From the NCBI GenBank assembly GCA_035610835.1, contig CM069452.1, positions 69,598,919-69,662,918 of the forward strand: 64,000 nucleotides of DNA, read 5' to 3'. The position numbers and the translations under genes are program-made. Origin of the DNA: Ophiura sarsii. Lineage: Eukaryota > Echinodermata > Ophiuroidea > Amphilepidida > Ophiuridae. The first letter of the stretch is position 1. Each line of letters begins with the position of its first letter. Below, in pieces: positions 956 through 40,332 of this stretch. Under the pieces are notes generated by a model. The model did not search any database, had not been told where the DNA came from, and worked only from the letters and a program-made list of their open reading frames with translations.

Positions 956-3900
956 GGCTACACTGCATTACTCATTGCAGCTAGGTACTCATCCTCAGCT
1001 GAATGCATTAAGGCATTACTTAAGGGTAATGCAGACATAGAAGCTAGGACTAAAAATGTAAGTGTATCACTTGAATATGGACTAAGAATAAGGTTAATTC
1101 ACTATTTATGTGGATTGTGTTTTCAATTAAATTATGTATTAGTGTATCAGTATATTGGATATATTTATATTACAATGATTATATAATAATAACGTTTCTA
1201 TGTCTTGCCATTTCACAGAGCCACACTGCATTACCCTTTGCAGCTAGGTACTCATCATCAGCTGAATGCATCAAGGCATTACTGGAGGGTAATGCAGACA
1301 TTGAAGCTAAGAATGAAAATGTAAGTGTATCACTTGAATATGGACTAAGAATAAGGTTAATTCACTATATATGTGGATTGTATTTTCAATTGAATTATGT
1401 ATTAGTGTATCAGTATATTGGATATATATATATTACAATGATTATATAATAATAACATTTCTATGTCTTGCCATTTCACAGAGCCACACTGCATTACATT
1501 TTGCAGCTAGGTACTCATCATCAGCTGAATGCATCAAGGTATTACTGGAGAGTAATGCAGACATTGAAGCTAAGGATGAAAATGTAAGTGTATCACTTGA
1601 ATATGGACTAAGAATAAGGTTAATCCTCTATGTGGATTGTATTTTCAATTGAATTATGTATGAGTGTATCAGTATATTGTATATATTTATATTACAATTA
1701 TTATATAATAATAACATTTCTATGTCTTGCCATTTCACAGGGCTGCACTGCATTACATTATGCAGCTTGGTACTCATTATCAGCTGAATGCATCAAATCA
1801 TTACTGGAGGGTAATGCAGACATTGAAGCTAAGGATAAATATGTAAGTGTATCACTTGAATATGGACTAAAAATAAGGTTAATTCTCTATTTATGTTGGT
1901 TGTATTTTCAGTTGAATTATGTATGAGTGTATCAGTATATTGTATATATTTATATTACAATGATTATATAATAATAACATTTCTCTGTCTTGCCATTTCA
2001 CAGGGCTACACTGCATTACATTTTGCAGCTAGGTATTCATCATCAGCTGAATGCATCAAGGCATTACTGGAGGGTAATGCAGACATTGAAGCTAAAGATA
2101 AATATGTAAGTGTATCACTTGAATATGGACTAAGAATGAGGTTAACTCTCTATTTATGTGGATTGTATTTTTAATTGAATTATGTATTACTGTATCAGTA
2201 TATTGCATATATTTATATATTACAATGATTATATAATAATAACATTTCTATGTCTTGACATTTCACAGAGCCAAACTGCATTACACTTTGCAGCTAGGTA
2301 CTCATCATGTGAATGCATCAAGGCATTACTGGAGGGTTATGCAGACATTGAAGCTAAAGATAAATATGTAAGTGTATCACTTGAATATGGACTAAGAATA
2401 AGGTTAATTCTCTATTGATGTGGATTGTATTTTCAATTGAATTATGTATGAGTGTATCAGTATATTGTATATATTTATATTACAATGATTATATAATAAT
2501 AACATTTCTCTGTCTTGCCATTTCACAGGGCTACACTGCATTACATCTTGCAGCTAGGTGCTCATCATCAGCTGAATGCATCAAGGCATTACTGGAGGGT
2601 AATGCAGACATTGAAGCTAAGGAAGAAATTGTAAGTGTATCACTTGAATATGGACTAAGAATAAGTTATGTTTTAATAATTAATTTATAATGATTAAGTA
2701 CAGTGCATACGTGATTATATAATGATAACATTTCTCTGTCTTGCCATTTCACAGGGCTACACTGCATTACATTTTGCAGCTTGGTTCTCATCAGCTGAAT
2801 GCATCAAGGCATTACTTGAGGGTAATGCAGACATTGAAGCTAAGGATAAAATTGTAAGTGTATCACTTGAATATGGACTAAGAATAAGGTTAATTCACTA
2901 TTTATGTGGATTGTATTTTCAATTGAATTATGTATTAGTGTATCATTATATTGGATATATTTATAGTACAATGATTATATAATGATAACATTTATCTGTC
3001 TTGCCATTTCACAGAGCAGGACTCCATTACATTTTGCAGCTGGGTTCTCATCAGCTGAATGCATCAAAGTATTACTTGAGGGTAATGCAGACATTGATGC
3101 TAAGAATACAAATGTAAGTGTATCACTTGAATATGGACTAAAAATAAGGTTAATTCACTATGTATGTGGATTGTATTTTCAATTGAATTATGTATGAGTG
3201 TATCAGTATATTGTATATATTTATATTACAATGATTATATAATAATAACATTTCTCTGTCTTGCCATTTCACAGGGCTATACTGCATTACATTTTGCAGC
3301 TAGGTACTCATCATCATGTGAATGCATCAAGGCATTACTGGAGGGTAATGCAGACATTGAAGCTAAGGATAAAGATGTAAGTGTATCACTTGAACATGGA
3401 CCAAGAATAAGGTTAATTCACAATTTATGTGGATTGTATTTTTAATTGAATTATGTATTAGTGTATCAGTATATTGTATATATTTATATTACAATGATTA
3501 TATAATAATAACATTTCTATGTCTTGCCATTTCACAGGGCGACACTCCATTACATTTTGCAGCTAAGTACTCATCATCACGTGAAGGCATCAAGGCATTA
3601 CTGGAGTGTAATGCAGACATTGAAGCTAAGGAAAAAGATGTAAGTGTATCACTTGAATATGGACTAAGAATATGGTTAATCCTCTATTTATGTGGATTGT
3701 ATTTTAATTGAATTATGTATTACTGTATCAGTATATTGTATATATTTATATTACAATGATTATATAATAATAACATTTCTCTGTCTTGCCGTTTCACAGG
3801 GGTGCACTGCATTACATTTTGCAGCTAGGTATTCATCATCAGCTGAATGCATCAAGGCATTACTGGAGGATAATGCAGACATTGAAGCTAAGGATAAAAA

Positions 3901-6900
3901 TGTAAGTGTATCACTTGAATATGGACTAAGAATAAGGTTAATTCTCTATTTATGTGGATTGTATTTTCAATTGAATTATGTATTACTGTATCAGTATATT
4001 GTATATATTTATATTACAATGTTTATATAATAATAACGTTTCTATGTCTTGCCATTTCACAGGGCTACACTGCATTACATCTTGCAGCTAGGTACTCATC
4101 ATCAGCTGAATGCATAAAGGCATTACTGGAGGGTAATGCAGACATTGAAGCTAAGAATAAAAATGTAAGTGTATCACTTGAATATGGTAATTCTCTATTT
4201 ATGTTGGTTGTATTTTCAGTTGAATTATGTATGAGTGTATCAGTATATTGTATATATTTATATTACAATGATTATATAATAATAACATTTCTCTGTCTTG
4301 CCATTTCACAGGGCTACACTGCATTACATATTGCAGCTAGGTACTCATCATCATGTGAATGCATCAAGGCATTACTGGAGGGTAATGCAGACATTGAAGC
4401 TAAGGATAAAGATGTAAGTGTATCACTTGAACATGGACCAAGAATAAGGTTAATTCACTATTTATGTGGATTGTATTTTCAATTGAATTATGTATTAGTG
4501 TATCAGTATATTGTATATATTTATATTACAATGATTATATAATAATAACATTTCTATGTCTTGCCATTTCACAGGGCGACACTCCATTACATTTTGCAGC
4601 TAAGTACTCATCATCACGTGAAGGCATCAAGGCATTACTGGAGTGTAATGCAGACATTGAAGCTAAAGATAAATATGTAAGTGTATCACTTGAATATGGA
4701 CTAAGAATGAGGTTAACTCTCTATTTATGTGGATTGTATTTTTAATTGAATTATGTATTACTGTATCAGTATATTGTATATATTTATATTACAATGATTA
4801 TGAAATAATAACATTTCTCTGTCTTGCCATTTCACAGGGCTACACTGCATTACATTTTGCAGCTAGGTATTCATCATCAGCTGAATGCATCAAGGCATTA
4901 CTGGAGGGTAATGCAGACATTGATGCTAAGAATACAAATGTAAGTGTATCACTTGAATATGGACTAAAAATAAGGTTAATTCACTATTTATGTGGATTGT
5001 ATTTTTAATTGAATTATGTATTACTGTATCAGTATATTGTATATATTTATATTACAATGTTTATATAATAATAACGTTTTTATGTCTTGCCATTTCACAG
5101 AGCCACACTGCATTACACTCTGCAGCTAGGTACTCATCATCAGCTGAATGCATCAAGGCATTACTGGAGGGTAATGCAGACATTGAAGCTAAGGATGAAG
5201 ATGTAAGTGTATCACTTGAACATGGACCAAGAATAAGGTTAATTCTCTATTTATGTGGATTGTATTTTCAATTGAATTATGTATTACTGTATCAGTATAT
5301 TGTATATATTTATATTACAATGAATATATAATGATAACATTTCTCTGTCTTGCCATTTCACAGAGCCACACTGCATTACATTTTGCAGCTAGGTACTCAT
5401 CATCAGCTGAATGCATCAAGGCATTACTGGAGGGTAATGCAGACATTGAAGCTAAGGATAAAGATGTAAGTGTATCACTTGAACATGGACCAAGAATAAG
5501 GTTAATTCACTATTTATGTGGATTGTATTTTCAATTGAATTATGTATTAGTGTATCAGTATATTGCATATATTTATATTACAATGATTATATAATGATAA
5601 CATTTCTCTGTCTTGCCATTTCACAGGGCAACACTGCATTACATTTTGCAGCTAACTCATCATGTGAATGCATCAAGGCATTACTGGAGGGTAATGCAGA
5701 CATTGAAGCTAAGGATAAAAATGTAAGTGTAGCACTTGAACATGGACCAAGAATAAGGTTAATTCACTATTTATGTGGATTGTATTTTCAATTGAATTAT
5801 GTATTAGTGTATCAGTATATTGTATATATTTATATTACAATGATTATATAATAATAACATTTCTATGTCTTGCCATTTCACAGGGCGACACTCCATTACA
5901 TTTTGCAGCTAAGTACTCATCATCACGTGAAGGCATCAAGGCATTACTGGAGTGTAATGCAGACATTGAAGCTAAGGAAAAAGATGTAAGTGTATCACTT
6001 GAATATGGACTAAGAATATGGTTAATCCTCTATTTATGTGGATTGTATTTTAATTGAATTATGTATTACTGTATCAGTATATTGTATATATTTATATTAC
6101 AATGATTATATAATAATAACATTTCTCTGTCTTGCCATTTCACAGGGGTGCACTGCATTACATTTTGCAGCTAGGTACTCATCAGCTGAATGCATCAAGG
6201 CATTACTGGAGGGTAATGCAGACATTGAAGCTAAAGATAAATATGTAAGTGTATCACTTGAATATGGACTAAAAATAAGGTTAATTCACTATTTATGTGG
6301 ATTGTATTTTTAATTGAATTATGTATTACTGTATCAGTATATTGTATATATTTATATTACAATGTTTATATAATAATAACGTTTCTATGTCTTGCCATTT
6401 CACAGAGCCGCACTGCATTACACTCTGCAGCTAGGTACTCATCATCAGCTGAATGCATCAAGGCATTACTGAAGGGTAATGCAGACATTAAAGCTAAGGA
6501 TGAAGATGTAAGTGTATCACTTGAACATGGACCAAGAATAAGGTTAATTCTCTATTTATGTGGATTGTATTTTCAATTGAATTATGTATTACTGTATCAG
6601 TATATTGTATATATTTATATTACAATGATTATATAATGATAACATTTCTCTGTCTTGCCATTTCACAGAGCCACACTGCATTACATTTTGCAGCTAGGTA
6701 CTCATCATCAGCTAAATGCATCAAGGCATTACTGAAGGGTAATGCAGACATTGAAGCTAAGAATAAAAATGTAAGTGTATTACTTGAATATGGTAATTCT
6801 CTATTTATGTTGGTTGTATTTTCAGTTGAATTATGTATGAGTGTATCAGTATATTGTATATATTTATATTACAATGATTATATAATAATAACATTTCTCT

Positions 6901-7793
6901 GTCTTGCCATTTCACAGGGCTACACTGCATTACATTTTGCAGCTAGGTACTCATCATCATGTGAATGCATCAAGGCATTACTGGAGGGTAATGCAGACAT
7001 TGAAGCTAAGGATAAAGATGTAAGTGTATCACTTGAACATGGACCAAGAATAAGGTTAATTCACTATTTATGTGGATTGTATTTTCAATTGAATTATGTA
7101 TTAGTGTATCAGTATATTGCATATATTTATATTACAATGATTATATAATGATATCATTTCTCTGTCTTGCCATTTCACAGGGCAACACTGCATTACATTT
7201 TGCAGCTAACTCATCATGTGAATGCATCAAGGCATTACTGGAGGGTAATGCAGACATTGAAGCTAAGGATAAAAATGTAAGTGTAGCACTTGAATATGGA
7301 CTAAGAATAAGGTTAATTCACTACTTATGTGGATTGTATTTGCAATTGAATTATGTATTACTGTATCAGTATATTGTATATATTTATATTACAATGATTA
7401 TATAATAATAACATTTCTCTGTCTTGCCATTTCACAGGGCAACACGCCATTACATCTTGCAGCTGGGTGCTCATCATCAGCTGAATGCATCAAGGCATTA
7501 CTGGAGGGTAATGCAGACATTGAAGCTAAGGATAAAAATGTAAGTGTATCACTTGAATATGGACTAAGAATAAGGTTAATTCACTGTGGATTGTATTTGC
7601 AATTGAATTATGTATTACTGTATCAGTATATTGTATATATTTATATTACAATGATTATATAATAATAACATTTCTCTGTCTTGCCATTTCACAGGGCAAC
7701 ACGCCATTACATCTTGCAGCTGGGTTATCATCAGCTGAATGCATCAAGGCATTACTTCAGGGTAATGCAGACATTGAAGCTAAGGATAAAAAT
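956..7793 (+). CDS. Ankyrin exons 1-27 (intact)
   Basis: Each exon codes one ankyrin repeat of the form G-x-TALHFAA ... ECIKALLEGNADIEAKD. Exons: 956-1057, 1219-1320, 1482-1583, 1741-1842, 2004-2105, 2269-2367, 2529-2630, 2755-2853, 3015-3113, 3275-3376, 3538-3639, 3800-3901, 4063-4164, 4312-4413, 4575-4676, 4838-4939, 5101-5202, 5364-5465, 5627-5722, 5884-5985, 6146-6244, 6406-6507, 6669-6770, 6918-7019, 7181-7276, 7438-7539, 7695-7793. Lengths are 102, 99 or 96 bp. All begin after cag and end before gtaagt, in phase 0, so any exon can be skipped without a frameshift. None contains a stop. Differences cluster at repeat residue 2 (Y, H, C, N, D, R, Q), at 10-15 (R/W/G/K/N, Y/F/C, then S/A/C) and at the last residues, which in ankyrin folds lie at hairpin tips and the inner-helix face used for binding. 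Confidence 0.88.
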
Positions 7794-10700
7794 GTAAGTG
7801 TATCACTTGAATATGGACTAAGAATAAGGTTTATTCACTATTTACGTGGATTGTATTTTCAATTGAATTATTTATTACTGTATCAGTATATTGATATGAT
7901 ATGATTTTATTGGCACAAAATCGCGACCCGAAGGCCGAATTACATTGTACAGGAAAGTAAGGAATACATATAAAACAATTCAATACACAAATAGACAACA
8001 TACTGGGCAGGAACATGGCAAACAACAAGGGACAAGGCCAAATACAGGATATGCGAAGCAAATTATGGGAGATCACTCAGTCTGTTGATCAACTTCACAT
8101 AATAAGGAATGGGGCTTTCAGCATATCTGTTTGTGCGAGCACGAGGCTGGGTGAGTTCGGCATTGTTTCTCAATTGTCTACCATGAACCTGACCTCTGCA
8201 TGCAGGGAGCAACCTTTTAGTCCTACTGCATTCGGCTAGTGACTGAGCAAACTTCAGAGAATGTTGCTCCCTCCGGGCAGACAAATAATCAAAATTACAT
8301 ACATCTAAAGCATTACGATAGGAAATAAAACTAGGACCAAGGATAATTCTTAAAGCTCTCTTTTGGACTCTCTCAAGTTTTAGAGCTAGTTTGGATGTGA
8401 GGGCACAATGCCAGATGACGTCAGAATATTCAAGCAGAGGGCGAATGTACCCCCTGTACACCGTCACTAACTCGGATGTATGAAAACCAAAACGTTTAAG
8501 AGATCGCAACATAAAAAGTCTTTTGTTGGCATTCTTGCACATGTGGTCAATTTGAGTGTCCCATTTAAGATCATCCTGTAACCAAATGCCCAAAATTTTG
8601 GCAGAGCTAGCAAAAGAAAGCTGCGATGGACCAATTTTTAAGTCAGGATGGGGAGGGGGGTCTTGCATGAAACACATCTGCATGGCTTGGCATTTGGCAG
8701 GGTTGAGTTTGAGTTGATTAGTAACAGACCAATCCAGAAAGCCATCAAGATCAGCTTGCAAGTTGCTACTCTCACTAGAGGAACGATTTTCGGCGAACGT
8801 AAGATCGTCCACATATTTCCAATAGTGGGAATAACAACTCTCAGCCGCATCATTGATAACTGCCTGAAAGGTTATGGGTCCAAGTTTAGTTCCTTGAGGA
8901 ACACCAGCACAAAGGGGCAAATAATTGGACACGGTTTGGTTATAGCGCACGCATTGGCGACGATCATTGAGAAAACTACATATCCATGGAACAATAGTCC
9001 CCCGGACCCCCAAGGCAATTAACTTCTGAATAGCAATAGAATGATTTACTAGATCAAATGCCTTCGAAAAATCAGTGAGGACTACTGTTCCGATATTTTT
9101 TGGCTTGTCAGCACCCTGGAACAAGAAATGAGTAAGATTCAAAAGATAGTGCGCAGTTGAAACACCTTGAATGTTACCGAACTGATTGATGTCAATAGAA
9201 TCTTGAATATCTTGCACCACCCATTTAGCAATAAACCCTTCAGCAATTTTGGCAAATATATCTGTCAGTGATATTGGTCTCATTTTATCAATGGAGGGTG
9301 GAAATTGTTTAGGAATGGGAACAACAATTGCCGACCTCCATTGGTGTGGGACCACCCCTTCTTTAAAGGAACAATTAAGCACGTCCGTGAGTGGACTACT
9401 CAGTTCGTATGCAAACTCTTTTATGAGTTTGGGTGGAATGCCATCAGGGCCACTGGATTTGGATGTCTTAACTACCTTGAGCACATTATATACTTCCCAT
9501 GGATTTAGTTCAGGGGCTACATAATTGACAGGCAAATAGGCAGGGAGAGCAGACATATTTAAAGGTTCAATATGGGATGAAATACTGACAAACTTGGAAT
9601 TGATGGCATTTGCCATATCCTTGTGATTTGTTCTGTCAATACCAGGTATATGCATATCAAGATCAGATTTTGTTGATATTGTATATATTTATATTACAAT
9701 GATTATATAATGATAACATTTCTCTGTCTTGCCATTTCACAGGGCTACACTGCATTACATCTTGCAGCTAGGTACTCATCATCAGCTGAATGCATAAAGG
9801 CATTACTGGAGGGTAATGCGGACATTGGATCAAAGGATCAAATCCATGACCAATTCAACAAAATCTGATCTTGATATGCATATACCTGGTATTGACAGAA
9901 CAAATCACAAGGATATGGCAAATGCCATCAATTCCAAGTTTGTCAGTATTTCATCCCATATTGAACCTTTAAATATGTCTGCTCTCCCTGCCTATTTGCC
10001 TGTCAATTATGTAGCCCCTGAACTAAATCCATGGGAAGTATATAATGTGCTCAAGGTAGTTAAGACATCCAAATCCAGTGGCCCTGATGGCATTCCACCC
10101 AAACTCATAAAAGAGTTTGCATACGAACTGAGTAGTCCACTCACGGACGTGCTTAATTGTTCCTTTAAAGAAGGGGTGGTCCCACACCAATGGAGGTCGG
10201 CAATTGTTGTTCCCATTCCTAAACAATTTCCACCCTCCATTGATAAAATGAGACCAATATCACTGACAGATATATTTGCCAAAATTGCTGAAGGGTTTAT
10301 TGCTAAATGGGTGGTGCAAGATATTCAAGATTCTATTGACATCAATCAGTTCGGTAACATTCAAGGTGTTTCAACTGCGCACTATCTTTTGAATCTTACT
10401 CATTTCTTGTTCCAGGGTGCTGACAAGCCAAAAAATATCGGAACAGTAGTCCTCACTGATTTTTCGAAGGCATTTGATCTAGTAAATCATTCTATTGCTA
10501 TTCAGAAGTTAATTGCCTTGGGGGTCCGGGGGACTATTGTTCCATGGATATGTAGTTTTCTCAATGATCGTCGCCAATGCGTGCGCTATAACCAAACCGT
10601 GTCCAATTATTTGCCCCTTTGTGCTGGTGTTCCTCAAGGAACTAAACTTGGACCCATAACCTTTCAGGCAGTTATCAATGATGCGGCTGAGAGTTGTTAT

Positions 10701-13700
10701 TCCCACTATTGGAAATATGTGGACGATCTTACGTTCGCCGAAAATCGTTCCTCTAGTGAGAGTAGCAACTTGCAAGCTGATCTTGATGGCTTTCTGGATT
10801 GGTCTGTTACTAATCAACTCAAACTCAACCCTGCCAAATGCCAAGCCATGCAGATGTGTTTCATGCAAGACCCCCCTCCCCATCCTGACTTAAAAATTGG
10901 TCCATCGCAGCTTTCTTTTGCTAGCTCTGCCAAAATTTTGGGCATTTGGTTACAGGATGATCTTAAATGGGACACACAAATTGACCACATGTGCAAGAAT
11001 GCCAACAAAAGACTTTTTATGTTGCGATCTCTTAAACGTTTTGGTTTTCATACATCCGAGTTAGTGACGGTGTACAGGGGGTACATTCGCCCTCTGCTTG
11101 AATATTCTGACGTCATCTGGCATTGTGCCCTCACATCCAAACTAGCTCTAAAACTTGAGAGAGTCCAAAAGAGAGCTTTAAGAATTATCCTTGGTCCTAG
11201 TTTTATTTCCTATCGTAATGCTTTAGATGTATGTAATTTTGATTATTTGTCTGCCCGGAGGGAGCAACATTCTCTGAAGTTTGCTCAGTCACTAGCCGAA
11301 TGCAGTAGGACTAAAAGGTTGCTCCCTGCATGCAGAGGTCAGGTTCATGGTAGACAATTGAGAAACAATGCCGAACTCACCCAGCCTCGTGCTCGCACAA
11401 ACAGATATGCTGAAAGCCCCATTCCTTATTATGTGAAGTTGATCAACAGTGATCTCCCATAATTTGCTTCGCATATCCTGTATTTGGCCTTGTCCCTTGT
11501 TGTTTGCCATGTTCCTGCCCAGTATGTTGTCTATTTGTGTATTGAATTGTTTTATATGTATTCCTTACTTTCATGTACAATGTAATTCGGCCTTCGGGTC
11601 GCGATTTTGTGCCAATAAAATCATATCATATCATACATTGAAGCTAAGGATGAAGATGTAAGTGTATCACTTGAATATGGACTAAGAATAAGGTTTATTC
11701 ACTATTTACGTGGATTGTATTTTCAATTGAATTATTTATTACTGTATCAGTATATTGTATATATTTATATTACAATGATTATATAATGATAACATTTCTC
11801 TGTCTTGCCATTTCACAGGGCTACACTGCATTACATCTTGCAGCTAGGTACTCATCATCAGCTAAATGCATCAAGGCATTACTGGAGGGTAATGCGGACA
11901 TTGAAGCTAAGGATGAAGATGTAAGTGTATCACTTGAATATGGACTAAGAATAAGGTTAATTCACTATTTATGTGGATTGTATTTTCAATTGAATTATGT
12001 ATTACTGTATCAGTATATTGCATATATTTATATATTACAATGATTATATAAAAATAACATTTCTATGTCTTGTCATTTCACAGGGCTACACTGCATTACA
12101 TTTTGCAGCTTGGTACTCATCATGTGAATGCATCAAGGCATTACTGGAGGGTAATGCAGACATTGAAGCTAAGGATGAAGATGTAAGTGTATCACTTGAA
12201 TATGGACTAAGAATAAGGTTAATTCTCTATTCATGTGGATTGTATTTTCAATTGAATTATGTATTAGTGTATCAGTATATTGTATATATTTATATTACAA
12301 TGATTATATAATAATAATATTTCAATGTCTTGACATTTCACAGAGCCACACTGCATTACACTTTGCAGCTAGGTACTCATCATCATGTGAATGCATCAAG
12401 GCATTACTGGAGGGTAATGCAGACATTGAAGCTAAGAATGAAGATGTAAGTGTATCACTTGAATATGGACTAAGAATAAGGTTAATTCTCTATTGATGTG
12501 GATTGTATTTTCAATTGAATTATGTATTAGTGTATCAGTATATTGCATATATTTATATATTACAATGATTATATAATAATAACATTTCTATGTCTTGTCA
12601 TTTCACAGGGCTACACTGCATTACATTTTGCAGCTAGGTACTCATCATGTGAATGCATCAAGGCATTACTGGAGGGTAATGCAGACATTGAAGCTAAGGA
12701 TGAAGATGTAAGTGTATCACTTGAATATGGACTAAGAATGAGGTTAACTCTCTATTTATGTGGATTGTATTTTCAATTGAATTATGTATTACTGTATCAG
12801 TATATTGTATATTTTTATATTACAATGAATATATAATGATAACATTTCTATGTCTTGTCATTTCACTGGACTGGACTCCATTGCATTTTGCAGCTACAGG
12901 GTGAGTCAAAAAAAGTTTACCCTAATTGAAAAAAATCTAAAAAAAAAATGTCTGACCACAAAATCAAGGCAAACAAAACTTTAAATGATTGCGCCATTTC
13001 TTTGCTACCATCTGGAATAAAATCACGCTATTTGATGATACCGTTAAGTAAATATGACTATTTCTGTACAGGAGCTGTTTTTTCACCAAATACACGGTTT
13101 TTAATTTCAAGCTTAACGAGCTTAATAATGTTTACTAGGATTATGATGTAAAGCATTAAACATCTTGTTTATTAAAAGAATTAAGTAGACAATAGACTTG
13201 TTCAAAATTGTCTCCTAATAGATTAAAACAATAGACAGCTTTAAGGCCTATTTATGACACAATTACCACACTTTAATCATTTCATAACAAAGGAATTGAT
13301 CCTTTCGCTGTCGGTATTGTAATTTTTTATTGGTCGTATCTATCTTATGAAATATAATGGTCAAGATCTGGAAGCGTGTTCGGACGTTAAATTGGTCACT
13401 TTTATTCAAAACAGCGTAAAATAAGTTTCCCTCAACCAATCTAAACCAGATAAAATTCATATTAAAGCTAATTGATTTGTCTTTATACCATTGTTTTGAG
13501 AAAAAAAAACGAAAACTTTTTTCTGAAAAAATCGCTGAAGTTGAGTAAACTTTTTTTTGACGCACCCTGTAGGTGCTCATCATGTGAATGCATCAAGGCA
13601 TTACTGGAGGGTAATGCAGACATTGAAGCTAAGGATAAAAATGTAAGTGTATCACTTGAATATGGACTAAGAATAAGGTTTATTCTTTATTAATGTGGAT

Positions 13701-16700
13701 TGTATTTTCAATTGAATTATGTATTAGTGTATCAGTATTCAGTATATGTAGGGGTGTATCAGTATATTGTATGTACTTATATTACAATGATTATATAATG
13801 ATAATAATTAGGCTCTATTTAAAACTAATAAACAATTAGATAAATTCATAACCACCAAGCCATCAAAATGTCGTAACGCGTGTTACCAAACTCATATTCA
13901 GGGAAACGTGCTAAAACTTCATTTATTTATCACTATTTATGGTTAAATATGTTAGTTCAATTGTCAAAGTCAAAATTAATTTTAATTTAGAAATTAAAAA
14001 AAGAATCGAATGCTAGCAAATTATCGCTGGACAAAGTGTAACGCGTGATACCGTAACACGTGTTACCGACTATTTTGCAATTTACAAAAAAGTGAGAACT
14101 TGAATTCTTGTTATTATTCTAGTATTATAAACCTTAGACGGGTACTTGCTTACAGTAGTGACCAATTGATTGTAGATTGGTTAGTTTATGTACAAAAGCA
14201 GGGAGGGTAAGAATTGGTTATGTTTTAATAATTAAATAATGGCCAAGGTTATGAGGAGGCCACGGTTATGAGGAGGAAGGGAGTATTTTAAGCTAAATCT
14301 TTGAAAGATACCCCTGTCAAACTAAAAGCCTGGTCATAAATCTCCTCAAAATTGTTTTACATATTATACAGTCCTCAAAATAAATAACTGACCAGGTAAT
14401 AAATATGCTCTCAACTCCAGAACTATAACTCCTACGTAAAAATATTAGACAATAAAGTTGTAGGGAATATTAACTCAGTTATGTGCCCTAAACCAAAACA
14501 ACGTCCGTTTTTCATTTTAACATTTCGTTCGTCTACACGCAGCCTAGGACTAGTAACAGGCAGATTATTGATTAACTTGTAGCAACAACTCACTGGTCGA
14601 TAGTAACACGGGGATTGGGGATGCATCAATTGATCAATGCAACCCATACACATACCTGTCACACTGTCCCGCGTGTTCAAATCCCAAGTTTTAAAATGTA
14701 AACTGCACTTTGTTTGATCCTTTTAAATGTCGCATTCTTAATTATTAACCGATCTCAATGAATAATGTATCAACTTAAAGAAGAGAAATTTCTTTACAAC
14801 TTTATTATTTAATATTTTTATGTAGGAGCTATAGTTTTGGAGTTAAGAGTATATTTATTACCTGGTCAGTTACTTATTTTGAGGACTGTATTTCATTTTT
14901 AGATGATGAAATGTCAATTTTGGACCCGAATGAATATTATTGCAAATTGGATCTTTTATGCTTCATAATGATACCAAAACAAGGGTATGTCAAGTTGGAA
15001 ACTCTATATCGCAAAAGATAACAATCTAATGCAGTTGAATGTCCTAAATTTACCATAAGTCTTGATTTACACTGAGTTTTATTTATGTTTTATGTATTCA
15101 GCAACATACACCCCTGCACTTGGCTTGTTATGAGTATGACAAAACAAGCAGTAGCTCAAGGTTCAATACAATACTTCAACTTATCCAGTGGAATGCAAAT
15201 ATATATGCACAGAACAAGGTCAGTGTAATTAAGCAAGTGATGGGGCATTCATAATTCAAAATATGTATAGATGAGGTGACCGTTGTTTACATGAGTAGTG
15301 TTTACAAATTGATTAGCGCCTGGTCTAAAGACATACTAGAGGTACTAGTCCATGACTAACTACTGCATACATCATACTATATGACAGCAAAACACATCAC
15401 TGAGCGCCAATACTAGTCCATGACTAACTACTGCATACATCATACTATATGAAAGCAAAACACACATCACTGAGCGCCAATTTTAAAAGCACATGCCCTT
15501 ATGGTGCGCACGCAAACCGCCAGGCAACCAGATTTAGTACCTGGTCTCTCATTGTGCTTAGGGATGCATACCATGACTACTGCACTATTACACCGTAAGC
15601 ATGGTAAGTAATGATCAATCAAGTGAATTAAAGCACTTTCCCTGTAGGTGCGCACGCAAACCGCCGGGCACTACGTCACCGGTCACACCATCTATAAGAT
15701 ATAGAGAAACCTTAAACCAGTATACCCAGTAGAAAGTCACTGTGATATACAGTGTAAGCATCCCCTGTGGATGAAAGTTTTATGGCATGAATTTGGGGAA
15801 CTCGCATGGCGGAGAGGTAGTTACAAAACGCTCTAGAAAATACAACAAAGTTATAAAGTTTATGAGATATATAATGCTATTATATTGAACTAGGCGGTCA
15901 CCCGGGGTTTGGCGGTCACCCGGGTTTGGCGGTCATCCGGGTTTGGTGGTTTGTAGAATGCATGCATAAAGCCCGATCGGACAAACTTTGAAAATTCGAC
16001 CCTTAGACGACCTTTGACCCCGGACGACCCAAGAAAAACAAAGCCGTTTTATTTTTTCCACGCTCTACTCGTATTCGGGCTTCCCGCCACCGTTTAAGCC
16101 CGATCGGACAAACTTTGAAAATTCGACCCCTAGACGACCTGTGACCCCAGAAGACCCGACAAACGCTAACCCGTTTTATTTTTGCCACGCTCGCCTCGCA
16201 TCGAGCATTGTGATCACCGAGTTTAAGCACGATCCGACCAACTTCAAAAAGTTGACCCCTAGATGACCTTTGACCTCGTACGCTCTAGCGAATGCGAACT
16301 TGCTCTTGCGGGGACCGAGCTGCACCCAACTACTGAGTTTGAACGCCGCCCGACCCTGGGAAGGCTTTGAAAAAAGCACGCACAGACAAACAGACAGAGT
16401 AGCGTATTATTATATAGATCATATTCAACTTACGTACATGTAATCACAGTGAAAATTCACACCTAGCATCTACAATCTTGTTCAAAACCTGTTGGGACAC
16501 TATACACGTGAGCATGAAATATCTTCCAAAATTAGTAAAAAGCTGTAAGTTGAAAGTATGATAGTCAAAACTAGTTTATGTAAAGCTGCCATCCCCCACC
16601 CCCCCCCCCCCCCCAATCAATGTTGGGGCTGATATATATAACACAGCCCGTTGCTGGACGATGCTTTTATATGGGCCAACATTGAGTTTAGGGGGAGGGA

Positions 16701-19700
16701 CCACCGTTCCACAGGACATGCAGGAAGTGTCCCAACAGTTTTGAACATGATTGCATTAAGGGAGTGGAAAAGTGAGCTATAAATAATACAAAATTCGCTA
16801 TATCTCGAAAACGGTAGCTTTGATTTTAACAATTCTTTTTAAGAAATGAAGAACATTGCTTCTGTAACATTCCGAGTTTAACTTCATAGTCTAATTACGT
16901 ATACATATTTAATAAAATACATAAATAACCTTTATTTTGATGAAGTGTCATAATTTCAAAGTATCTAATTTACAGCGGTGGGTGTTTTAAACGATTGCAT
17001 CACCTGTTTTCCGTTTTTAGACACAACTTTTGATTCAATAAAGGGTTTCTTGATCAGATTTGGAGGATATATAGGTCATGTTATCGGTCACGTGACCAAC
17101 TACTTAAAAATGTTATGCTCTAACTTACTTTTAGGGATAGTTCACTTTTAATTACGGAGGAATATTTTGCACACTAGATGCCCAAGAAGTAATGGATATT
17201 GCCAGTTATTTAGATTCAAATGGTTTCTTGATAACATATAATACCATCCAAACATGCTAGAAAATACTCTCGTCGCTTACGCGACTCCTGCGTCACGGAA
17301 AATGGATTACATAACAAGGAAGGGTGGGCGCTCTAATCGCTTACGCGACTCGTATGCATCTCAATTGGGGAATATTGTGGTTGCTTTGGCGAGTACCAAC
17401 AAGTTAAATCAATCGGCGCACACACTATCGTATTAAGTATTTAACTATTTGAATTAATTCTTTTACTTAATGAATACAAAGAATGTAAAAACAAAATACA
17501 TAATTTGTATTAAACGCACTCATATAGAGTTCTCTGGCATTTTAAAAGTGTACGGGGATATGGATTTAAGTTTTAAAATATTCAAAACATAGGCCGATGT
17601 CAGACTCGAACCTATAACATTTGGTTTACCTACATGTACACTATTGTGTGTAAGACAACAGCGCGCTAGACCGGTCGGCCATGGAGGGAACACACCACTT
17701 AACAACGTTTTAAAGAATATCAGGACTATTATAGACACAATCGATATAGGTTAGCCGTTGTTGTTAATGCATTGTATTATAGTTCATTTTGACAATGTAT
17801 TTTGATGGGCAATAACAGTAATCCATAGAATATTTTCAATCAGAAGTCAGAAATATTATGGGAAAGTCGATTTTCAACAGTATGCCATTATTTTAATATA
17901 AAGGTCTTTGACATATTTTCTTTTTTTACAACTCATGGCTTACTGTCGATCCAATCGATTCTACATGTAGCATGTTGGCATACTGTGAATAGCCTATATC
18001 GATTGTGTCCATAATAGTCCTGATATTAATCTTTAAAACGTTGTTAAGTGGTGTGTTCCCTTCATGGCCGACCGGTCTAGCGCGCTGTTGTCTTACACAC
18101 AATATTGTACATGTAGGTAAACCAAATGTTGTATATAGGTTCGAGTCTGACATCGGCCTATGTTTTGAATTTTTACATGACGCAAGAATATAAACAATAT
18201 TGGTGCTTATTGCTAACATGTCACTCAAAGAGATCTACGTGTTTCTTTTAAAATAAAATCATGTCATGATAAAATGACATTATTTGTTTACCTATATCAT
18301 ATAAAGAAGTCTTTATTAAATGTACCAATTAGGTGCGTAATTCAGACAATGCCCCTTTAAATTGAAGACATTACTAACCCATTCTTTTTTTTAAACAAAC
18401 GATACTAATCGTACATTATCGCTCTCTAATATTGCCAAATATGAGATTAATTGGAACATTTTTAAAGCAGTTACAAGGACTTTTATGAATTTAGTACATT
18501 ATTTTTTCAATGCTTTAATACATGTATTAAGGGAGTGGAAAAGTGAGCTATAAATAATACAAAATTCGCTATATCTCGAAAACGGTAGCTTTGATTTTAA
18601 CAATTCTTTTTAAGAAATGAAGAACATTGCTTCTGTAACATTCCGAGTTTAACTTCATAGTCTAATTACGTATACATATTTAATAAAATACATAAATAAC
18701 CTTTATTTTGATGAAGTGTCATAATTTCAAAGTATCTAATTTACAGCGGTGGGTGTTTTAAACGATTGCATCACCTGTTTTCCGTTTTTAGACACAACTT
18801 TTGATTCAATAAAGGGTTTCTTGATCAGATTTGGAGGATATATAGGTCATGTTATCGGTCACGTGACCAACTACTTAAAAATGTTATGCTCTAACTTACT
18901 TTTAGGGATAGTTCACTTTTAATTACGGAGGTATATTTTGCACACTAGATGCCCAAGAAGTAATGGATATTGACAGTTATTTAGATTCAAATGGTTTCTT
19001 GATAACATATAATACCATCCAAACATGCTAGAAAATACTCTCGTCGCTTACGCGACTCCTGCGTCACGGGAAAATGGATTACATAACAAGGAAGGGTGGG
19101 CGCTCTAATCGCTTACGCGACTCGTATGCATCTCAATTGGGGAATATTGTGGTTGCTTTGGCGAGTACCAACAAGTTAAATCAATCGGCGCACACACTAT
19201 CGTATTAAGTATTTAACTATTTGAATTAATTCTTTTACTTAATGAATACAAGAATGTAAAAACAAAATACATAATTTGTATTAAACGCACTCATATAGAG
19301 TTCTCTGGCATTTTAAAAGTGTACGGGGATATGGATTTAAGTTTTAAAATATTCAAAACATAGGCCGATGTCAGACTCGAACCTATAACATTTGGTTTAC
19401 CTACATGTACACTATTGTGTGTAAGAAGACAGCGCGCTAGACCGGTCGGCCATGGAGGGAACACACCACTTAACAACGTTTTAAAGAATATCAGGACTAT
19501 TATAGACACAATCGATATAGGTTAGCCGTTGTTGTTAATGCATTGTATTATAGTTCATTTTGACAATGTATTTTGATGGGCAATAACAGTAATCCATAGA
19601 ATATTTTCAATCAGAAGTCAGAAATATTATGGGAAAGTCGATTTTCAACAGTATGCCATTATTTTAATATAAAGGTCTTTGACATATTTTCCTTTTTTAC

Positions 19701-22700
19701 AACTCATGGCTTACTGTCGATTCAATCGATTCTACATGTAGCATGTTGGCATACTGTGAATAGCCTATATCGATTGTGTCCATAATAGTCCTGATATTAA
19801 TCTTTAAAACGTTGTTAAGTGGTGTGTTCCCTCCATGGCCGACCGGTCTAGCGCGCTGTTGTCTTACACACAATATTGTACATGTAGGTAAACCAAATGT
19901 TGTATATAGGTTCGAGTCTGACATCGGCCTATGTTTTGAATTTTTACATGACGCAAGAATATAAACAATATTGGTGCTTATTGCTAACATGTCACTCAAA
20001 GAGATCTACGTGTTTCTTTTAAAATAAAATCATGTCATGATAAAATGACATTATTTGTTTACCTATATCATATAAAGAAGTCTTTATTAAATGTACCAAT
20101 TAGGTGCGTAATTCAGACAATGCCCCTTTAAATTGAAGACATTACTTACCCATTCTTTTTTTTAAACAAACGATACTAATCGTACATTATCGCTCTCTAA
20201 TATTGCCAAATATGAGATTAATTGGAACATTTTTAAAGCAGTTACAAGGACTTTTATGAATTTAGTACATTATTTTTTCAATGCTTTAATACAATCTTGT
20301 TCAAAACCTGTTGGGACACTATACACGTGAGCATGAAATATCTTCCAAAATTAGTAAAAAGCTGTAAGTTGAAAGTATGATAGTCAAAACTAGTTTATGT
20401 AAAGCTGCCATCCCCCACCCCCCCCCCCCCCCCCCCAATCAATGTTGGGGCTGATATATATAACACAGCCCGTTGCTGGACGATGCTTTTATATGGGCCA
20501 ACATTGAGTTTAGGGGGAGGGACCACCGTTCCACAGGACATGCAGGAAGTGTCCCAACAGTTTTGAACATGATTGCATTAAGGGAGTGGAAAAGTGAGCT
20601 ATAAATAATACAAAATTCGCTATATCTCGAAAACGGTAGCTTTGATTTTAACAATTCTTTTTAAGAAATGAAGAACATTGCTTCTGTAACATTCCGAGTT
20701 TAACTTCATAGTCTAATTACGTATACATATTTAATAAAATACATAAATAACCTTTATTTTGATGAAGTGTCATAATTTCAAAGTATCTAATTTACAGCGG
20801 TGGGTGTTTTAAACGATTGCATCACCTGTTTTCCGTTTTTAGACACAACTTTTGATTCAATAAAGGGTTTCTTGATCAGATTTGGAGGATATATAGGTCA
20901 TGTTATCGGTCACGTGACCAACTACTTAAAAATGTTATGCTCTAACTTACTTTTAGGGATAGTTCACTTTTAATTACGGAGGAATATTTTGCACACTAGA
21001 TGCCCAAGAAGTAATGGATATTGCCAGTTATTTAGATTCAAATGGTTTCTTGATAACATATAATACCATCCAAACATGCTAGAAAATACTCTCGTCGCTT
21101 ACGCGACTCCTGCGTCACGGAAAATGGATTACATAACAAGGAAGGGTGGGCGCTCTAATCGCTTACGCGACTCGTATGCATCTCAATTGGGGAATATTGT
21201 GGTTGCTTTGGCGAGTACCAACAAGTTAAATCAATCGGCGCACACACTATCGTATTAAGTATTTAACTATTTGAATTAATTCTTTTACTTAATGAATACA
21301 AAGAATGTAAAAACAAAATACATAATTTGTATTAAACGCACTCATATAGAGTTCTCTGGCATTTTAAAAGTGTACGGGGATATGGATTTAAGTTTTAAAA
21401 TATTCAAAACATAGGCCGATGTCAGACTCGAACCTATAACATTTGGTTTACCTACATGTACACTATTGTGTGTAAGACAACAGCGCGCTAGACCGGTCGG
21501 CCATGGAGGGAACACACCACTTAACAACGTTTTAAAGAATATCAGGACTATTATAGACACAATCGATATAGGTTAGCCGTTGTTGTTAATGCATTGTATT
21601 ATAGTTCATTTTGACAATGTATTTTGATGGGCAATAACAGTAATCCATAGAATATTTTCAATCAGAAGTCAGAAATATTATGGGAAAGTCGATTTTCAAC
21701 AGTATGCCATTATTTTAATATAAAGGTCTTTGACATATTTTCTTTTTTTACAACTCATGGCTTACTGTCGATCCAATCGATTCTACATGTAGCATGTTGG
21801 CATACTGTGAATAGCCTATATCGATTGTGTCCATAATAGTCCTGATATTAATCTTTAAAACGTTGTTAAGTGGTGTGTTCCCTTCATGGCCGACCGGTCT
21901 AGCGCGCTGTTGTCTTACACACAATATTGTACATGTAGGTAAACCAAATGTTGTATATAGGTTCGAGTCTGACATCGGCCTATGTTTTGAATTTTTACAT
22001 GACGCAAGAATATAAACAATATTGGTGCTTATTGCTAACATGTCACTCAAAGAGATCTACGTGTTTCTTTTAAAATAAAATCATGTCATGATAAAATGAC
22101 ATTATTTGTTTACCTATATCATATAAAGAAGTCTTTATTAAATGTACCAATTAGGTGCGTAATTCAGACAATGCCCCTTTAAATTGAAGACATTACTAAC
22201 CCATTCTTTTTTTTAAACAAACGATACTAATCGTACATTATCGCTCTCTAATATTGCCAAATATGAGATTAATTGGAACATTTTTAAAGCAGTTACAAGG
22301 ACTTTTATGAATTTAGTACATTATTTTTTCAATGCTTTAATACATGTATTAAGGGAGTGGAAAAGTGAGCTATAAATAATACAAAATTCGCTATATCTCG
22401 AAAACGGTAGCTTTGATTTTAACAATTCTTTTTAAGAAATGAAGAACATTGCTTCTGTAACATTCCGAGTTTAACTTCATAGTCTAATTACGTATACATA
22501 TTTAATAAAATACATAAATAACCTTTATTTTGATGAAGTGTCATAATTTCAAAGTATCTAATTTACAGCGGTGGGTGTTTTAAACGATTGCATCACCTGT
22601 TTTCCGTTTTTAGACACAACTTTTGATTCAATAAAGGGTTTCTTGATCAGATTTGGAGGATATATAGGTCATGTTATCGGTCACGTGACCAACTACTTAA

Positions 22701-25700
22701 AAATGTTATGCTCTAACTTACTTTTAGGGATAGTTCACTTTTAATTACGGAGGTATATTTTGCACACTAGATGCCCAAGAAGTAATGGATATTGACAGTT
22801 ATTTAGATTCAAATGGTTTCTTGATAACATATAATACCATCCAAACATGCTAGAAAATACTCTCGTCGCTTACGCGACTCCTGCGTCACGGGAAAATGGA
22901 TTACATAACAAGGAAGGGTGGGCGCTCTAATCGCTTACGCGACTCGTATGCATCTCAATTGGGGAATATTGTGGTTGCTTTGGCGAGTACCAACAAGTTA
23001 AATCAATCGGCGCACACACTATCGTATTAAGTATTTAACTATTTGAATTAATTCTTTTACTTAATGAATACAAGAATGTAAAAACAAAATACATAATTTG
23101 TATTAAACGCACTCATATAGAGTTCTCTGGCATTTTAAAAGTGTACGGGGATATGGATTTAAGTTTTAAAATATTCAAAACATAGGCCGATGTCAGACTC
23201 GAACCTATAACATTTGGTTTACCTACATGTACACTATTGTGTGTAAGAAGACAGCGCGCTAGACCGGTCGGCCATGGAGGGAACACACCACTTAACAACG
23301 TTTTAAAGAATATCAGGACTATTATAGACACAATCGATATAGGTTAGCCGTTGTTGTTAATGCATTGTATTATAGTTCATTTTGACAATGTATTTTGATG
23401 GGCAATAACAGTAATCCATAGAATATTTTCAATCAGAAGTCAGAAATATTATGGGAAAGTCGATTTTCAACAGTATGCCATTATTTTAATATAAAGGTCT
23501 TTGACATATTTTCCTTTTTTACAACTCATGGCTTACTGTCGATTCAATCGATTCTACATGTAGCATGTTGGCATACTGTGAATAGCCTATATCGATTGTG
23601 TCCATAATAGTCCTGATATTAATCTTTAAAACGTTGTTAAGTGGTGTGTTCCCTCCATGGCCGACCGGTCTAGCGCGCTGTTGTCTTACACACAATATTG
23701 TACATGTAGGTAAACCAAATGTTGTATATAGGTTCGAGTCTGACATCGGCCTATGTTTTGAATTTTTACATGACGCAAGAATATAAACAATATTGGTGCT
23801 TATTGCTAACATGTCACTCAAAGAGATCTACGTGTTTCTTTTAAAATAAAATCATGTCATGATAAAATGACATTATTTGTTTACCTATATCATATAAAGA
23901 AGTCTTTATTAAATGTACCAATTAGGTGCGTAATTCAGACAATGCCCCTTTAAATTGAAGACATTACTTACCCATTCTTTTTTTTAAACAAACGATACTA
24001 ATCGTACATTATCGCTCTCTAATATTGCCAAATATGAGATTAATTGGAACATTTTTAAAGCAGTTACAAGGACTTTTATGAATTTAGTACATTATTTTTT
24101 CAATGCTTTAATACAATCTTGTTCAAAACCTGTTGGGACACTATACACGTGAGCATGAAATATCTTCCAAAATTAGTAAAAAGCTGTAAGTTGAAAGTAT
24201 GATAGTCAAAACTAGTTTATGTAAAGCTGCCATCCCCCACCCCCCCCCCCCCCCCCCCAATCAATGTTGGGGCTGATATATATAACACAGCCCGTTGCTG
24301 GACGATGCTTTTATATGGGCCAACATTGAGTTTAGGGGGAGGGACCACCGTTCCACAGGACATGCAGGAAGTGTCCCAACAGTTTTGAACATGATTGCAT
24401 TAAGGGAGTGGAAAAGTGAGCTATAAATAATACAAAATTCGCTATATCTCGAAAACGGTAGCTTTGATTTTAACAATTCTTTTTAAGAAATGAAGAACAT
24501 TGCTTCTGTAACATTCCGAGTTTAACTTCATAGTCTAATTACGTATACATATTTAATAAAATACATAAATAACCTTTATTTTGATGAAGTGTCATAATTT
24601 CAAAGTATCTAATTTACAGCGGTGGGTGTTTTAAACGATTGCATCACCTGTTTTCCGTTTTTAGACACAACTTTTGATTCAATAAAGGGTTTCTTGATCA
24701 GATTTGGAGGATATATAGGTCATGTTATCGGTCACGTGACCAACTACTTAAAAATGTTATGCTCTAACTTACTTTTAGGGATAGTTCACTTTTAATTACG
24801 GAGGAATATTTTGCACACTAGATGCCCAAGAAGTAATGGATATTGCCAGTTATTTAGATTCAAATGGTTTCTTGATAACATATAATACCATCCAAACATG
24901 CTAGAAAATACTCTCGTCGCTTACGCGACTCCTGCGTCACGGAAAATGGATTACATAACAAGGAAGGGTGGGCGCTCTAATCGCTTACGCGACTCGTATG
25001 CATCTCAATTGGGGAATATTGTGGTTGCTTTGGCGAGTACCAACAAGTTAAATCAATCGGCGCACACACTATCGTATTAAGTATTTAACTATTTGAATTA
25101 ATTCTTTTACTTAATGAATACAAAGAATGTAAAAACAAAATACATAATTTGTATTAAACGCACTCATATAGAGTTCTCTGGCATTTTAAAAGTGTACGGG
25201 GATATGGATTTAAGTTTTAAAATATTCAAAACATAGGCCGATGTCAGACTCGAACCTATAACATTTGGTTTACCTACATGTACACTATTGTGTGTAAGAC
25301 AACAGCGCGCTAGACCGGTCGGCCATGGAGGGAACACACCACTTAACAACGTTTTAAAGAATATCAGGACTATTATAGACACAATCGATATAGGTTAGCC
25401 GTTGTTGTTAATGCATTGTATTATAGTTCATTTTGACAATGTATTTTGATGGGCAATAACAGTAATCCATAGAATATTTTCAATCAGAAGTCAGAAATAT
25501 TATGGGAAAGTCGATTTTCAACAGTATGCCATTATTTTAATATAAAGGTCTTTGACATATTTTCCTTTTTTACAACTCATGGCTTACTGTCGATTCAATC
25601 GATTCTACATGTAGCATGTTGGCATACTGTGAATAGCCTATATCGATTGTGTCCATAATAGTCCTGATATTAATCTTTAAAACGTTGTTAAGTGGTGTGT

Positions 25701-37700: not shown

Positions 37701-40332
37701 GCAACCAGAATGCCAAACGAAGGTGCACTCCTCGGCTCCAAGAATGAAATAAAAGTGAAATTAGCATAAATAAAACTAATGGATTAACCGAATAAATGAT
37801 TAAATTTTGCGCCTGAAAGTAACACTAACACTATCGGGTGGGGCGGGTGGGTGTGCGGTCTGAAGAACGAACCGAGAATGAGAGCTGAAAAGCTATCACT
37901 CGCGCAGCGAGTGATGACGTAACGAAGCGTTACGTAATGAGTGCTTGAATGCACTCATCATGCGTTCGATAACGAAAAGAAATGGTAATTTCTTACTCCG
38001 TTCCTCCGTAAGAAACCAAATTTCTTTTCTAAATCTACCTTATGTTAAAAGAAAACACGAGAGTACAAAATAAACAGAATACAGATGCAGTTGTGTTGAA
38101 CGGAGTTGGAAATGGCATAGTTGGCCAGACCACACAATAATTGAGAACCGCCAAAGAAGGCAAGAGATGAAAAACTCAATAAAACAAATAATTTACTGTA
38201 TTTAGGACGCAGATGTAATAATATAAAATTAAATGCAGCAGTGAGCTAATCAAGCCTGGATGGTGAGAAAAGATAAAGATGATAAAATTAACTAATACGA
38301 AGTCGCCAAACTGTCTGTGATGGTTTGTGCAGGAATGCCACCAAATAAAGCACTGAATGAATTGTATAGGTGCGTGTAAATAATAATGCTCGCAAATTCG
38401 GCATTAGCTCAAAAGCTCATCGCGTAGATTAAATATCCTGCGTGTATGAATGCCTACAAATTGGCATTAGCGAGAAAAAATCTCTGGCTATCCACTCTTA
38501 TGCTCTGAAATCGGCATGGTTATTGAAAAGGTAAACACTATCAAAGGGTTTTAAATAAAAAATAAAAACCTAACGAGTTTAAAAAAGCACTGCCCAACAT
38601 GCGTAAGCCCACAAAACATGAGATTACAAACATAACAACCCGCGGACAAAAGCGCTCACTAGAAAAGGCGTGAGATTATACAAATAAGTAAAAGGATTAT
38701 CGAATAGTATTGATGGAAAGTGACCACCTAAAATTGATCGAACATTGTCAAGCACGAGTAACTAGGAGTAGGACAAAAGGTATCAAGGGATACAAATCCA
38801 TTGACCCGTGATATTTTTTGCAGCGGATAAGCTATATAATGAAATTGGCCTTATAATATATTAATATAAGTGGTTACAAGCTATCCCGCGCAAAAATGGC
38901 AGTAACCTAAATCTGCACAACAAAATCCTCTATTGCTCGCGCGTGGGGGAGCCGAGAAATCTACTCTAATGGCCAAAGTGAGAAAGGAGGGAGTATGACA
39001 AAAAAGAGAATTGCCTAATGTCGGAGGGTGAAAAGAAACGTTTAACAACCTCCAATCCACAATATGCTCCTCTAAATGAGAGCCGTCGGGACAAATAACA
39101 GGCCAAAACATGGCAGATGTCCACTTGGTAATAATTAGCGTACCGGCGGCTTTGAATGATTTCAGGCGGGAAAACACTTGCACGATCAAAGATGCAGGGG
39201 GGCAAAAATAATTGTTACCGACGCTCCAATTTTGACAAAAAGCGTCCACACCCGATGATCCCCTGCACCAAAATCTAGTATTGAATACAGGAAGTTTAGC
39301 ATTGTGAGGGGATGCAAAGCGATCCACCGAGTGGGGGCCCCATAAGGCATCAATTAAGGAGAAGGAAGAGTCATCTAAAGACCAATCGTCAAAATCTTGA
39401 ATTTTACTGAGCTCGTCAGCTAAGGTATTCTCAGCTCTTGGAATCCATAATGGAAAAAGAATGATATCATGCTGTCTACATATTGAAAATATTGACATAG
39501 AAATGTCTTGTAAGTCTGGTTTTGGGCTGCCACATTTAATGATGCGGGGGACATTAGAATTGTCTGAGAACCATTTGACTTTCTGATGAACGAGAACGTT
39601 ATGTAACTCTAAAAGAATTCTATGCACAGCGGAAAGTTCGCGCCAGGTAGAACTTTTGGAGGCGTCGATATCGGACCAATGACCCTGAACGCGAATATCG
39701 CGACCTTGGATGTAACCGCCGTAACCGGTGGCGCTGGCATCGGAAAATATTTGCATGGTTGGTACAAGACGATACTTGAACGGGAAACCGTTCAGTGAGG
39801 TTATGTTTGATAGCCAAAAATCAAACTCTGAAATGACGGAGTCAGGAACAAAAACAGAATCTGACCAAAATAATCTAGATTCAATGACACTATACGTCGC
39901 TCGGGTCATTAACCTTGCGACTGGACCGAGTGCGAGGCACTACGAAAACCCTATTGTATATTTCACGGACATAAATTATGCTAATGAGCTCATTAAATGA
40001 CGTCACTCACATCATTGGGTTTTGCCGATGATTGAAATACGTTGATTGAAATTCTAGGTCGAGTAAAATGATGTTCTTATTTGTTGTCTGTGAGCTTTTC
40101 TGATTTTTTTCCCGTATTGGAGTATTTTTTTATTGAAAATAGACAGTTCAAATTAAACGTTGGTTCCAAGTTCAAGTAACAGCACATGTATTAAAGGCGA
40201 CAGCAAAGGCAATATGCAAGCAACATTTGAGAAAAAACGATGCCCGACTTTGCAAGAAAGTGTACGGGGAAGTGTACGAGTGAACATGACAAACCAAAAC
40301 ATCCTAGTAATAATCATCTCCGTGGCGCAATT

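Follow-up and report, generated by a model that had tools for sequence, protein, structure and literature searches.

An array of one-repeat ankyrin exons in Ophiura sarsii belongs to a candidate family of ROCO-based recognition receptors

A 64,000-nucleotide stretch of the Ophiura sarsii genome (assembly GCA_035610835.1, contig CM069452.1, here C12, positions 69,598,919 to 69,662,918 of the forward strand; hereafter the window) carries a tandem array of exons, each encoding one ankyrin (ANK) repeat, upstream of exons for Roc, COR and Death domains. With a probability of roughly 0.6, we read this locus as one member of a family of cytosolic ANK-Roc-COR-Death-CARD recognition receptors that is diversified in the germline, with a ROCO switch and a Death/CARD output. 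We computed the exon structure, the gene layout in paralogues, the family size, the homogenisation within loci, the fast-changing contact positions and the preservation of frame from the assembly, which was searched over 1.57 Gb in 748 contigs. The combination points to a kind of intracellular immune receptor that has not been described before; expression, an immune role, ligand binding and signalling are inferred. In the mechanism that we propose, the ankyrin solenoid (33 array repeats plus a cap at the window locus) would form the recognition part, the Roc-COR GTPase would act as the switch, and the Death and CARD domains would relay the signal, probably to cell death or inflammatory pathways. 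Because every repeat has a phase-0-0 exon to itself, the solenoid could change in the germline with the frame left intact, whether by unequal exchange, gene conversion, duplication of blocks or inactivation of one exon, and selection would favour amino-acid change on the binding face. All intact exons would be included by default and two split ones skipped.

The array in the window consists of 31 intact ankyrin exons between positions 956 and 12707 on the forward strand, all of which were rechecked. Each encodes a single repeat, is open throughout, is bounded by AG and GTAAGT and stands in phase 0-0, and the lengths (102 nt in 22 exons, 99 nt in seven and 96 nt in two) are all divisible by three. 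Twenty-seven of them occupy 956..7793, with starts at 956, 1219, 1482, 1741, 2004, 2269, 2529, 2755, 3015, 3275, 3538, 3800, 4063, 4312, 4575, 4838, 5101, 5364, 5627, 5884, 6146, 6406, 6669, 6918, 7181, 7438 and 7695; the introns between them measure 124-163 nt, the majority 155-163 nt. The other four lie at 11819-11920, 12084-12182, 12344-12445 and 12609-12707. Five array exons joined score 169.5 bits against Pfam Ank_2, and Tandem Repeats Finder gives the array a period of 263. The array begins upstream of the window, where two further intact exons were found at C12:69592670 and C12:69595895 (about 6 and 3 kb away), bringing the whole locus to 33 intact exons. The donor GTAAGT and the acceptor CACAG are present in all 33. 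The tandem structure, seen again at other loci, excludes chance, and the exon array is real. An assembly artefact was ruled out by paralogous arrays at other loci that have different repeats, introns and flanks.

A reading of the window from its letters alone (the sequence-only reading) had described 33 nearly identical ankyrin exons, every one in phase 0-0, a multiple of three in length and equipped with the same splice sites. Its number agrees with our locus total by coincidence. For the 31 intact window exons the description of phase and length stands, and the other two are split by transposon-like inserts. One of these (pieces 9743-9827 and 11635-11657, forward strand) is interrupted by a 1.8-kb LINE-like element in the same orientation (9828-11634), with a target duplication ACATTG and a reverse transcriptase recognised by Pfam in the open reading frame (ORF) 9798-11459. 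A second copy of this element lies in an intron in the opposite orientation (7896..9680, reverse strand); the two copies share 99.5% identity across 1786 bp. The other split copy is a dead exon (pieces 12869-12896 and 13570-13642, forward strand), separated at a TA by a mariner-like inverted-repeat element (12897-13569); its acceptor is CACTG in place of CACAG, so the claim of uniform splice sites fails here. The LINE-like and mariner-like types were judged by eye.

The layout of paralogues assigns the array to the Roc-COR-Death gene, which in the window lies about 30 kb away. The last ankyrin-repeat exon is diverged (39 aa, phase 0-0; 15102..15218) and is kept in paralogues. It is followed, after a 29.9 kb gap filled mostly by tandem repeats and a retrotransposon-like element, by an ankyrin-cap/linker exon (EEVAPLDYL..., phase 0-0; 45123..45188). 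The Roc, COR and Death exons then span 46.2-57.8 kb of the window on the strand of the array, the forward strand, as does every exon of the gene listed here. They comprise five Roc exons (46189..46308, with the P-loop GDPAAGKST; 48601..48651; 48923..49126, with DCAGHQEY; 51433..51547, with GTHLD; and 52615..52775), a COR exon (54770..54949) and a COR-Death exon (56688..57845) that probably ends at the donor CAG|GTAACT, its ORF continuing to a stop that ends at 57896. A 70-nt linker exon in phase 0-1 (59736..59805) leads from the COR-Death exon to a CARD exon beyond the window, at C12:69664680 on the same strand. Paralogue A, on C16, has the complete set of nine downstream exons in the same order behind an array of its own, at 86-96% identity, and there the terminal ankyrin exon is 0.5 kb from the cap/linker exon, next to Roc. 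The sequence-only reading had placed the array in front of a Roc-COR-Death gene and tied it to a Death-domain protein. Its upstream position on the same strand is seen in the window itself; the status as one gene rests on the exon order and spacing shared by paralogues, which support the tie.

A genome search gave at least 107 matches to the COR-Death exon, and the best 42 cover nearly the whole exon; as 103 of 240 candidates were scored, 42 is a lower bound. Twelve of these 42, the window locus included, are 80-100% identical to the query and 30 are 47-57% identical. Of the 12 closest loci, again counting the window, 11 have the terminal ankyrin exon no more than 50 kb upstream, as do two of the 30 more distant ones by weak matches; the two terminal-exon matches on C18 are weak (E 0.08 and 0.97). 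All of the 42 best loci have a same-strand CARD exon no more than 25 kb downstream, where about 0.0005 would be expected per locus if matches were spread uniformly over the genome. This pairing used the 42 best of the 107 COR-Death matches and 58 of 61 CARD matches, three fragments being left out. A COR-Death match outside the 42, at C16:10.08 Mb, also has a CARD match downstream. All six loci that we read agree in three features: a phase-0 GT at one fixed position of the COR-Death exon, a linker in phase 0-1 and a phase-1 acceptor at the CARD exon. Paralogue B has a stop one codon behind the presumed COR-Death donor, which is possible if the donor is used.

The predicted domains are recognised to different degrees. 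Roc scores 35.6 bits against PF08477 (cut-off 27) and matches the LRRK2 Roc domain in the PDB with an E of 9.1e-8; the LRRK2 alignments extend to query residue 317-324, just beyond Roc. The COR exon was assigned because it follows Roc and because the relative P0002 matches COR-A weakly (24.6 bits, E 2.5e-5, below the cut-off of 35.3). P0002, from Amphiura filiformis, is a paralogue that is 45% identical over 79% of the query. The homologue P0001, 47% identical to the window's COR-Death exon, scores 34.4 bits for Death, over the Pfam cut-off. The CARD exon reaches 31.1 bits against Pfam CARD_2 (cut-off 28.2) and that of paralogue A 27.5, slightly under; the best PDB match of the CARD exon is RIG-I/DDX58 (E 1.5e-6). 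AlphaFold, run on the COR-Death exon with two sequences, gave a mean predicted local distance difference test score (pLDDT) of 47. A short query revealed no TIR domain of the kind present in P0002 in 16 and 24 kb downstream, and a plasmid search led nowhere. Beyond the CARD exon come a further linker exon (0-1) and a further Death exon (1-1), both in phase. This latter Death exon (6926-7249 of the stretch L032, C12:69669844-69670167) has at least 150 matches in the genome, many about 60% identical, which reveals a very large Death-domain expansion; because of these relatives, we do not claim it as part of the gene.

To follow the array through the family, we read 102 intact phase-0-0 exons at four loci: 33 at the window locus and, in three paralogues, 20 in array A and 24 and 25 in arrays B and C. 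The array pattern required an AG, an open frame and an in-phase donor; the counts for A, B and C are of intact copies in the stretches fetched, broken copies not being counted, and the end of array C is cut by its stretch. Several of the 20 exons of array A are alike, and five of them had been read with an earlier donor, GTAAAT, and were extended by six bases for the site tests. The closest relative of 101 of the 102 exons lies within its own locus, and the arrays are homogenised within loci. In the window array, neighbours differ on average by 0.104 and all pairs by 0.110, so that adjacency adds hardly any likeness. Some units nine or ten places apart, such as 11 and 20 or 14 and 24, are almost the same, a sign of conversion or of duplication in blocks. 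The term fast-changing, applied earlier to this array, gains support as change over time from the homogenisation within loci and from exon numbers of 20 to 33 in the stretches read. Matches to the array exon, at least 149 with 150 of 449 candidates scored, also lie at further loci, mainly on C16.

Diversity in the window array is concentrated at the predicted binding positions. Exon copies differ pairwise by 0.097 on average and introns by 0.055, and the nonsynonymous difference (pN, 0.102) exceeds the synonymous one (pS, 0.081). A contact set was chosen beforehand from designed ankyrin binders (DARPins), whose randomised positions, position 26 included, were placed on the exon by way of the TPLH motif; it comprises exon codons 2, 10, 11, 24, 33 and 34. 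The spacing of the randomised DARPin residues was checked against residues 46, 48, 56, 57, 78, 79, 81 and 89 in the part of the source available (PMC3602593). Contact codons reach a pN of 0.238 where the rest have 0.070, with a permutation p of 0.003 that becomes 0.0033 when codon 24 is dropped; both this test and the Mann-Whitney test take codons or columns as independent. At positions 1 and 2 of the contact codons, nucleotide diversity (pi) is 0.287, 4.7 times that of the introns (0.062) and against 0.075 in the other codons, a comparison that is independent of any tree. Variation at third positions (0.070) and at positions 1 and 2 of the other codons is about at intron level, which indicates that the exon is on average not strongly constrained apart from its invariant residues, 13 of the 34. 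Indels in exons are of 3 or 6 nt only, and just one of eight distinct intron gaps has a length divisible by three.

Codon site models were implemented for the present analysis. For the window array, twice the log-likelihood difference (2dlnL) of M2a over M1a is 22.2 on an exon tree, 42.3 on an exon plus intron tree and 82.4 on an intron tree. The selected codons are 2, 10, 11, 32 and 34 on the exon tree and additionally 1, 7 and 33 on the exon plus intron tree; the intron-tree fit selects sites 2 and 15 only, with an omega of 14. M2a is also significant in array A (2dlnL 20.5) and array C (39.2), and these fits support positive selection in three of the four arrays. Fixed residues, a diversified binding face and copies homogenised per locus are together the pattern of a putative recognition domain. 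The proposal that differences fall at hairpin tips and inner-helix positions is largely borne out by the site models and the contact-set diversity, with codon 15 as the exception, and the even spread of variable residues over the repeat that would have told against the sequence-only reading is not seen. Between the window and paralogue A, the part from cap to Death has a ratio of nonsynonymous to synonymous substitution rates (dN/dS) of 0.445, and single exons range from 0.11 to 0.6 except two.

Several observations weigh against a germline-diversified receptor family as we describe it. COR gives no Pfam match in the window gene, Death reaches 17.6 bits there, under the Pfam cut-off of 22.6, and comparison of the regions upstream of the loci did not reveal a 5' end of the gene. 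The highest pN of all (0.474) belongs to codon 15, outside the contact set; array B gave no significant result for M2a (2dlnL 3.17, p 0.21); and recombination between copies, which are not independent, may inflate the site-model tests. Relative to paralogue A, dN/dS exceeds 1 in two short exons, at 4.9 in the linker and 2.2 in Roc exon 1, on few changes in each case. A stop lies inside seven of the 42 best COR-Death matches, two of them among the 12 closest, four of 17 terminal-exon matches lack a COR-Death partner at up to 50 kb, and no CARD match is listed near partial COR-Death matches at C12:40.04 Mb, C8:40.87 Mb and C2:86.63 Mb. Within the window copy, the two ankyrin exons split by inserts count on the same side.

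The alternative with the most to recommend it is combinatorial splicing, in which a subset of array exons would enter each transcript and one gene would yield many solenoids; we consider it unlikely. Arthropod Dscam makes many products from one gene in this manner, and splice arrays of the Dscam kind choose among mutually exclusive exons. All intact exons being in phase 0-0 would permit it, the two split exons need skipping if the message is to stay open, and the brown-algal ROCO genes, for which the accessible text reports LRR-exon splice variants, provide a parallel (PMC11378527). Against it, GTAAGT and CACAG stand at all 33 intact exons and mark none as alternative. Symmetric exons are, moreover, expected from any tandem exon duplication, so that phase symmetry by itself is not evidence of alternative splicing; what it does entail is that single exons can be gained, lost or disabled. 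From uniform consensus splice signals the default expectation is inclusion of every intact exon, and full inclusion would fit them at least equally well. A broader form, in which exon subsets per transcript or per cell would create a large ANK-ROCO-Death-CARD repertoire, anticipatory and independent of NLRs, on top of germline diversification of the binding face, strikes us as doubtful.

A constitutive, very long ankyrin scaffold that has no recognition role, with repeats kept alike by ordinary concerted evolution, is quite improbable. Exons of one repeat and homogenised repeats are common in repeat proteins, and array B, with no significant selection, would suit such a scaffold. The excess of contact-codon variation over the introns of the same array, the significance of M2a in the other three arrays and the size of a family with a CARD and a Death-like region all argue against it. 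The notion that the window copy is a decaying gene, to which the LINE-like and mariner-like inserts in exons and a 28 kb repeat block in an intron lend some colour, is very improbable: the 31 other window exons are all open, which has a probability of 0.003 by chance (counting stops only, at the intron rate, with shared ancestry ignored), the Roc, COR and Death exons are open with splice sites kept, and overall dN/dS is below 1. We also considered the ATG in Roc exon 1 as the start of a separate Roc gene, against which stand the conserved cap exons upstream. A separate ankyrin gene unrelated to Roc-COR is excluded by the 0.5 kb spacing of terminal ankyrin and linker exons beside Roc in paralogue A.

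The receptor family proposed here resembles known systems in part. Brown-algal ROCO genes carry one leucine-rich repeat (LRR) per 72-nt exon, occur in splice variants and show positive selection at concave-face sites, according to the portion of the report at hand (PMC11378527). They share with the Ophiura genes a ROCO GTPase, one repeat per phase-symmetric exon, tandem arrays, concave-face selection and a proposed role as immune receptors. They differ in having phase-2 LRR exons, where we find phase-0 ankyrin exons of 96-102 nt, in an LRR-ROC-COR order for which that portion mentions no Death or CARD, and in the splice variants reported. Measured against the repeat-per-exon ROCO type, Ophiura has single-phase, one-repeat exons and, in three of four arrays, binding-face selection, on ankyrin repeats and not on LRRs. 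Fungal NLR/STAND proteins with ANK, TPR or WD repeats show positive selection on the concave ankyrin surface, one site excepted (PMC4986451). In the sections of that paper available, they are alike in their highly conserved repeats, suggested concerted evolution and selection on inner helices and the hairpin/loop, and unlike in their NACHT or NB-ARC switch and fungal effector domains; those sections say nothing of single-repeat exons.

Among metazoan proteins, DAPK1 is a ROCO protein with a Death domain, a kinase in front and no LRR, as described in the part of the source seen (PMC6337361). The DAPK1 group resembles the window gene in Roc, in the lack of LRRs and in the probable COR and Death domains, and differs in the kinase before Roc-COR; none turned up here, though no proper kinase search was made. 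It has one human member, compared with at least 42 long COR-Death matches in Ophiura. To our knowledge, DAPK1 has no CARD. RIG-I (DDX58) has a CARD related to the CARD exon of the window gene; the relation is limited to the CARD, and no helicase was seen in the window gene. We found no description of an animal ankyrin-array ROCO arrangement in the open-licence literature, and the words 'ankyrin' and 'roco' do not occur in the main text, as available, of the Amphiura filiformis genome paper (PMC11310086). If our reading is right, this echinoderm would possess a large, previously undescribed family of receptors that resemble NLRs and combine a ROCO GTPase with a RIG-I-related CARD and a Death domain, and exon birth, death and exchange would shape their binding solenoid. 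Nature would then vary much the same ankyrin positions that DARPin engineers randomise, and algae, fungi and animals would each seem to have reached homogenised, hypervariable repeats on a nucleotide-binding switch. Combinatorial splicing of recognition arrays in animals other than arthropods would become a directly testable question.

Further relatives of these exons were seen elsewhere in the genome. A distant subfamily at C18:43.10-43.12 Mb (L026/L027) has two single-ankyrin stretches 7 kb apart and then a terminal ankyrin stretch; the stretches differ at residues 2, 7, 11, 13 and 14, partly the same hot positions as in the window array. About 30 distant matches (30-36% identity) to approximately residues 60-260 of the COR-Death exon lie on C7 and C15, mostly at C7:74-78 Mb and C15:34-37 Mb, and represent another family with a COR-like part. 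Ten weaker CARD matches (32-35% identity) at C17:38.5-43.9 Mb, where no COR-Death match is listed, form a second CARD family.

The intron between the terminal ankyrin exon and the cap/linker exon contains an insertion (16752..44306, no strand assigned) of 11 tandem units of 1.8-2.05 kb around a reverse-transcriptase element, absent at the same place in paralogue A. The units, at 16752-36125 and 42824-44306, flank the element and are 99-100% identical in the 300-nt pieces compared. On the reverse strand the element has a reverse transcriptase ORF recognised by Pfam (40534-41775), an RNase H-like ORF (38884-39939) and a tyrosine recombinase-like ORF (36373-37437), the latter two identified by eye with no Pfam match. 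It looks like a DIRS/Ngaro-type element with amplified repeats. A tRNA-Asn (GTT) lies inside the retrotransposon region at 40315-40390. Two short tandem arrays were also observed, one of a 50-bp unit behind the COR-Death exon (58053-58710) and one of 109-118-bp units at the end of the window (61743-64000). The GC content of the window is 36.5%.

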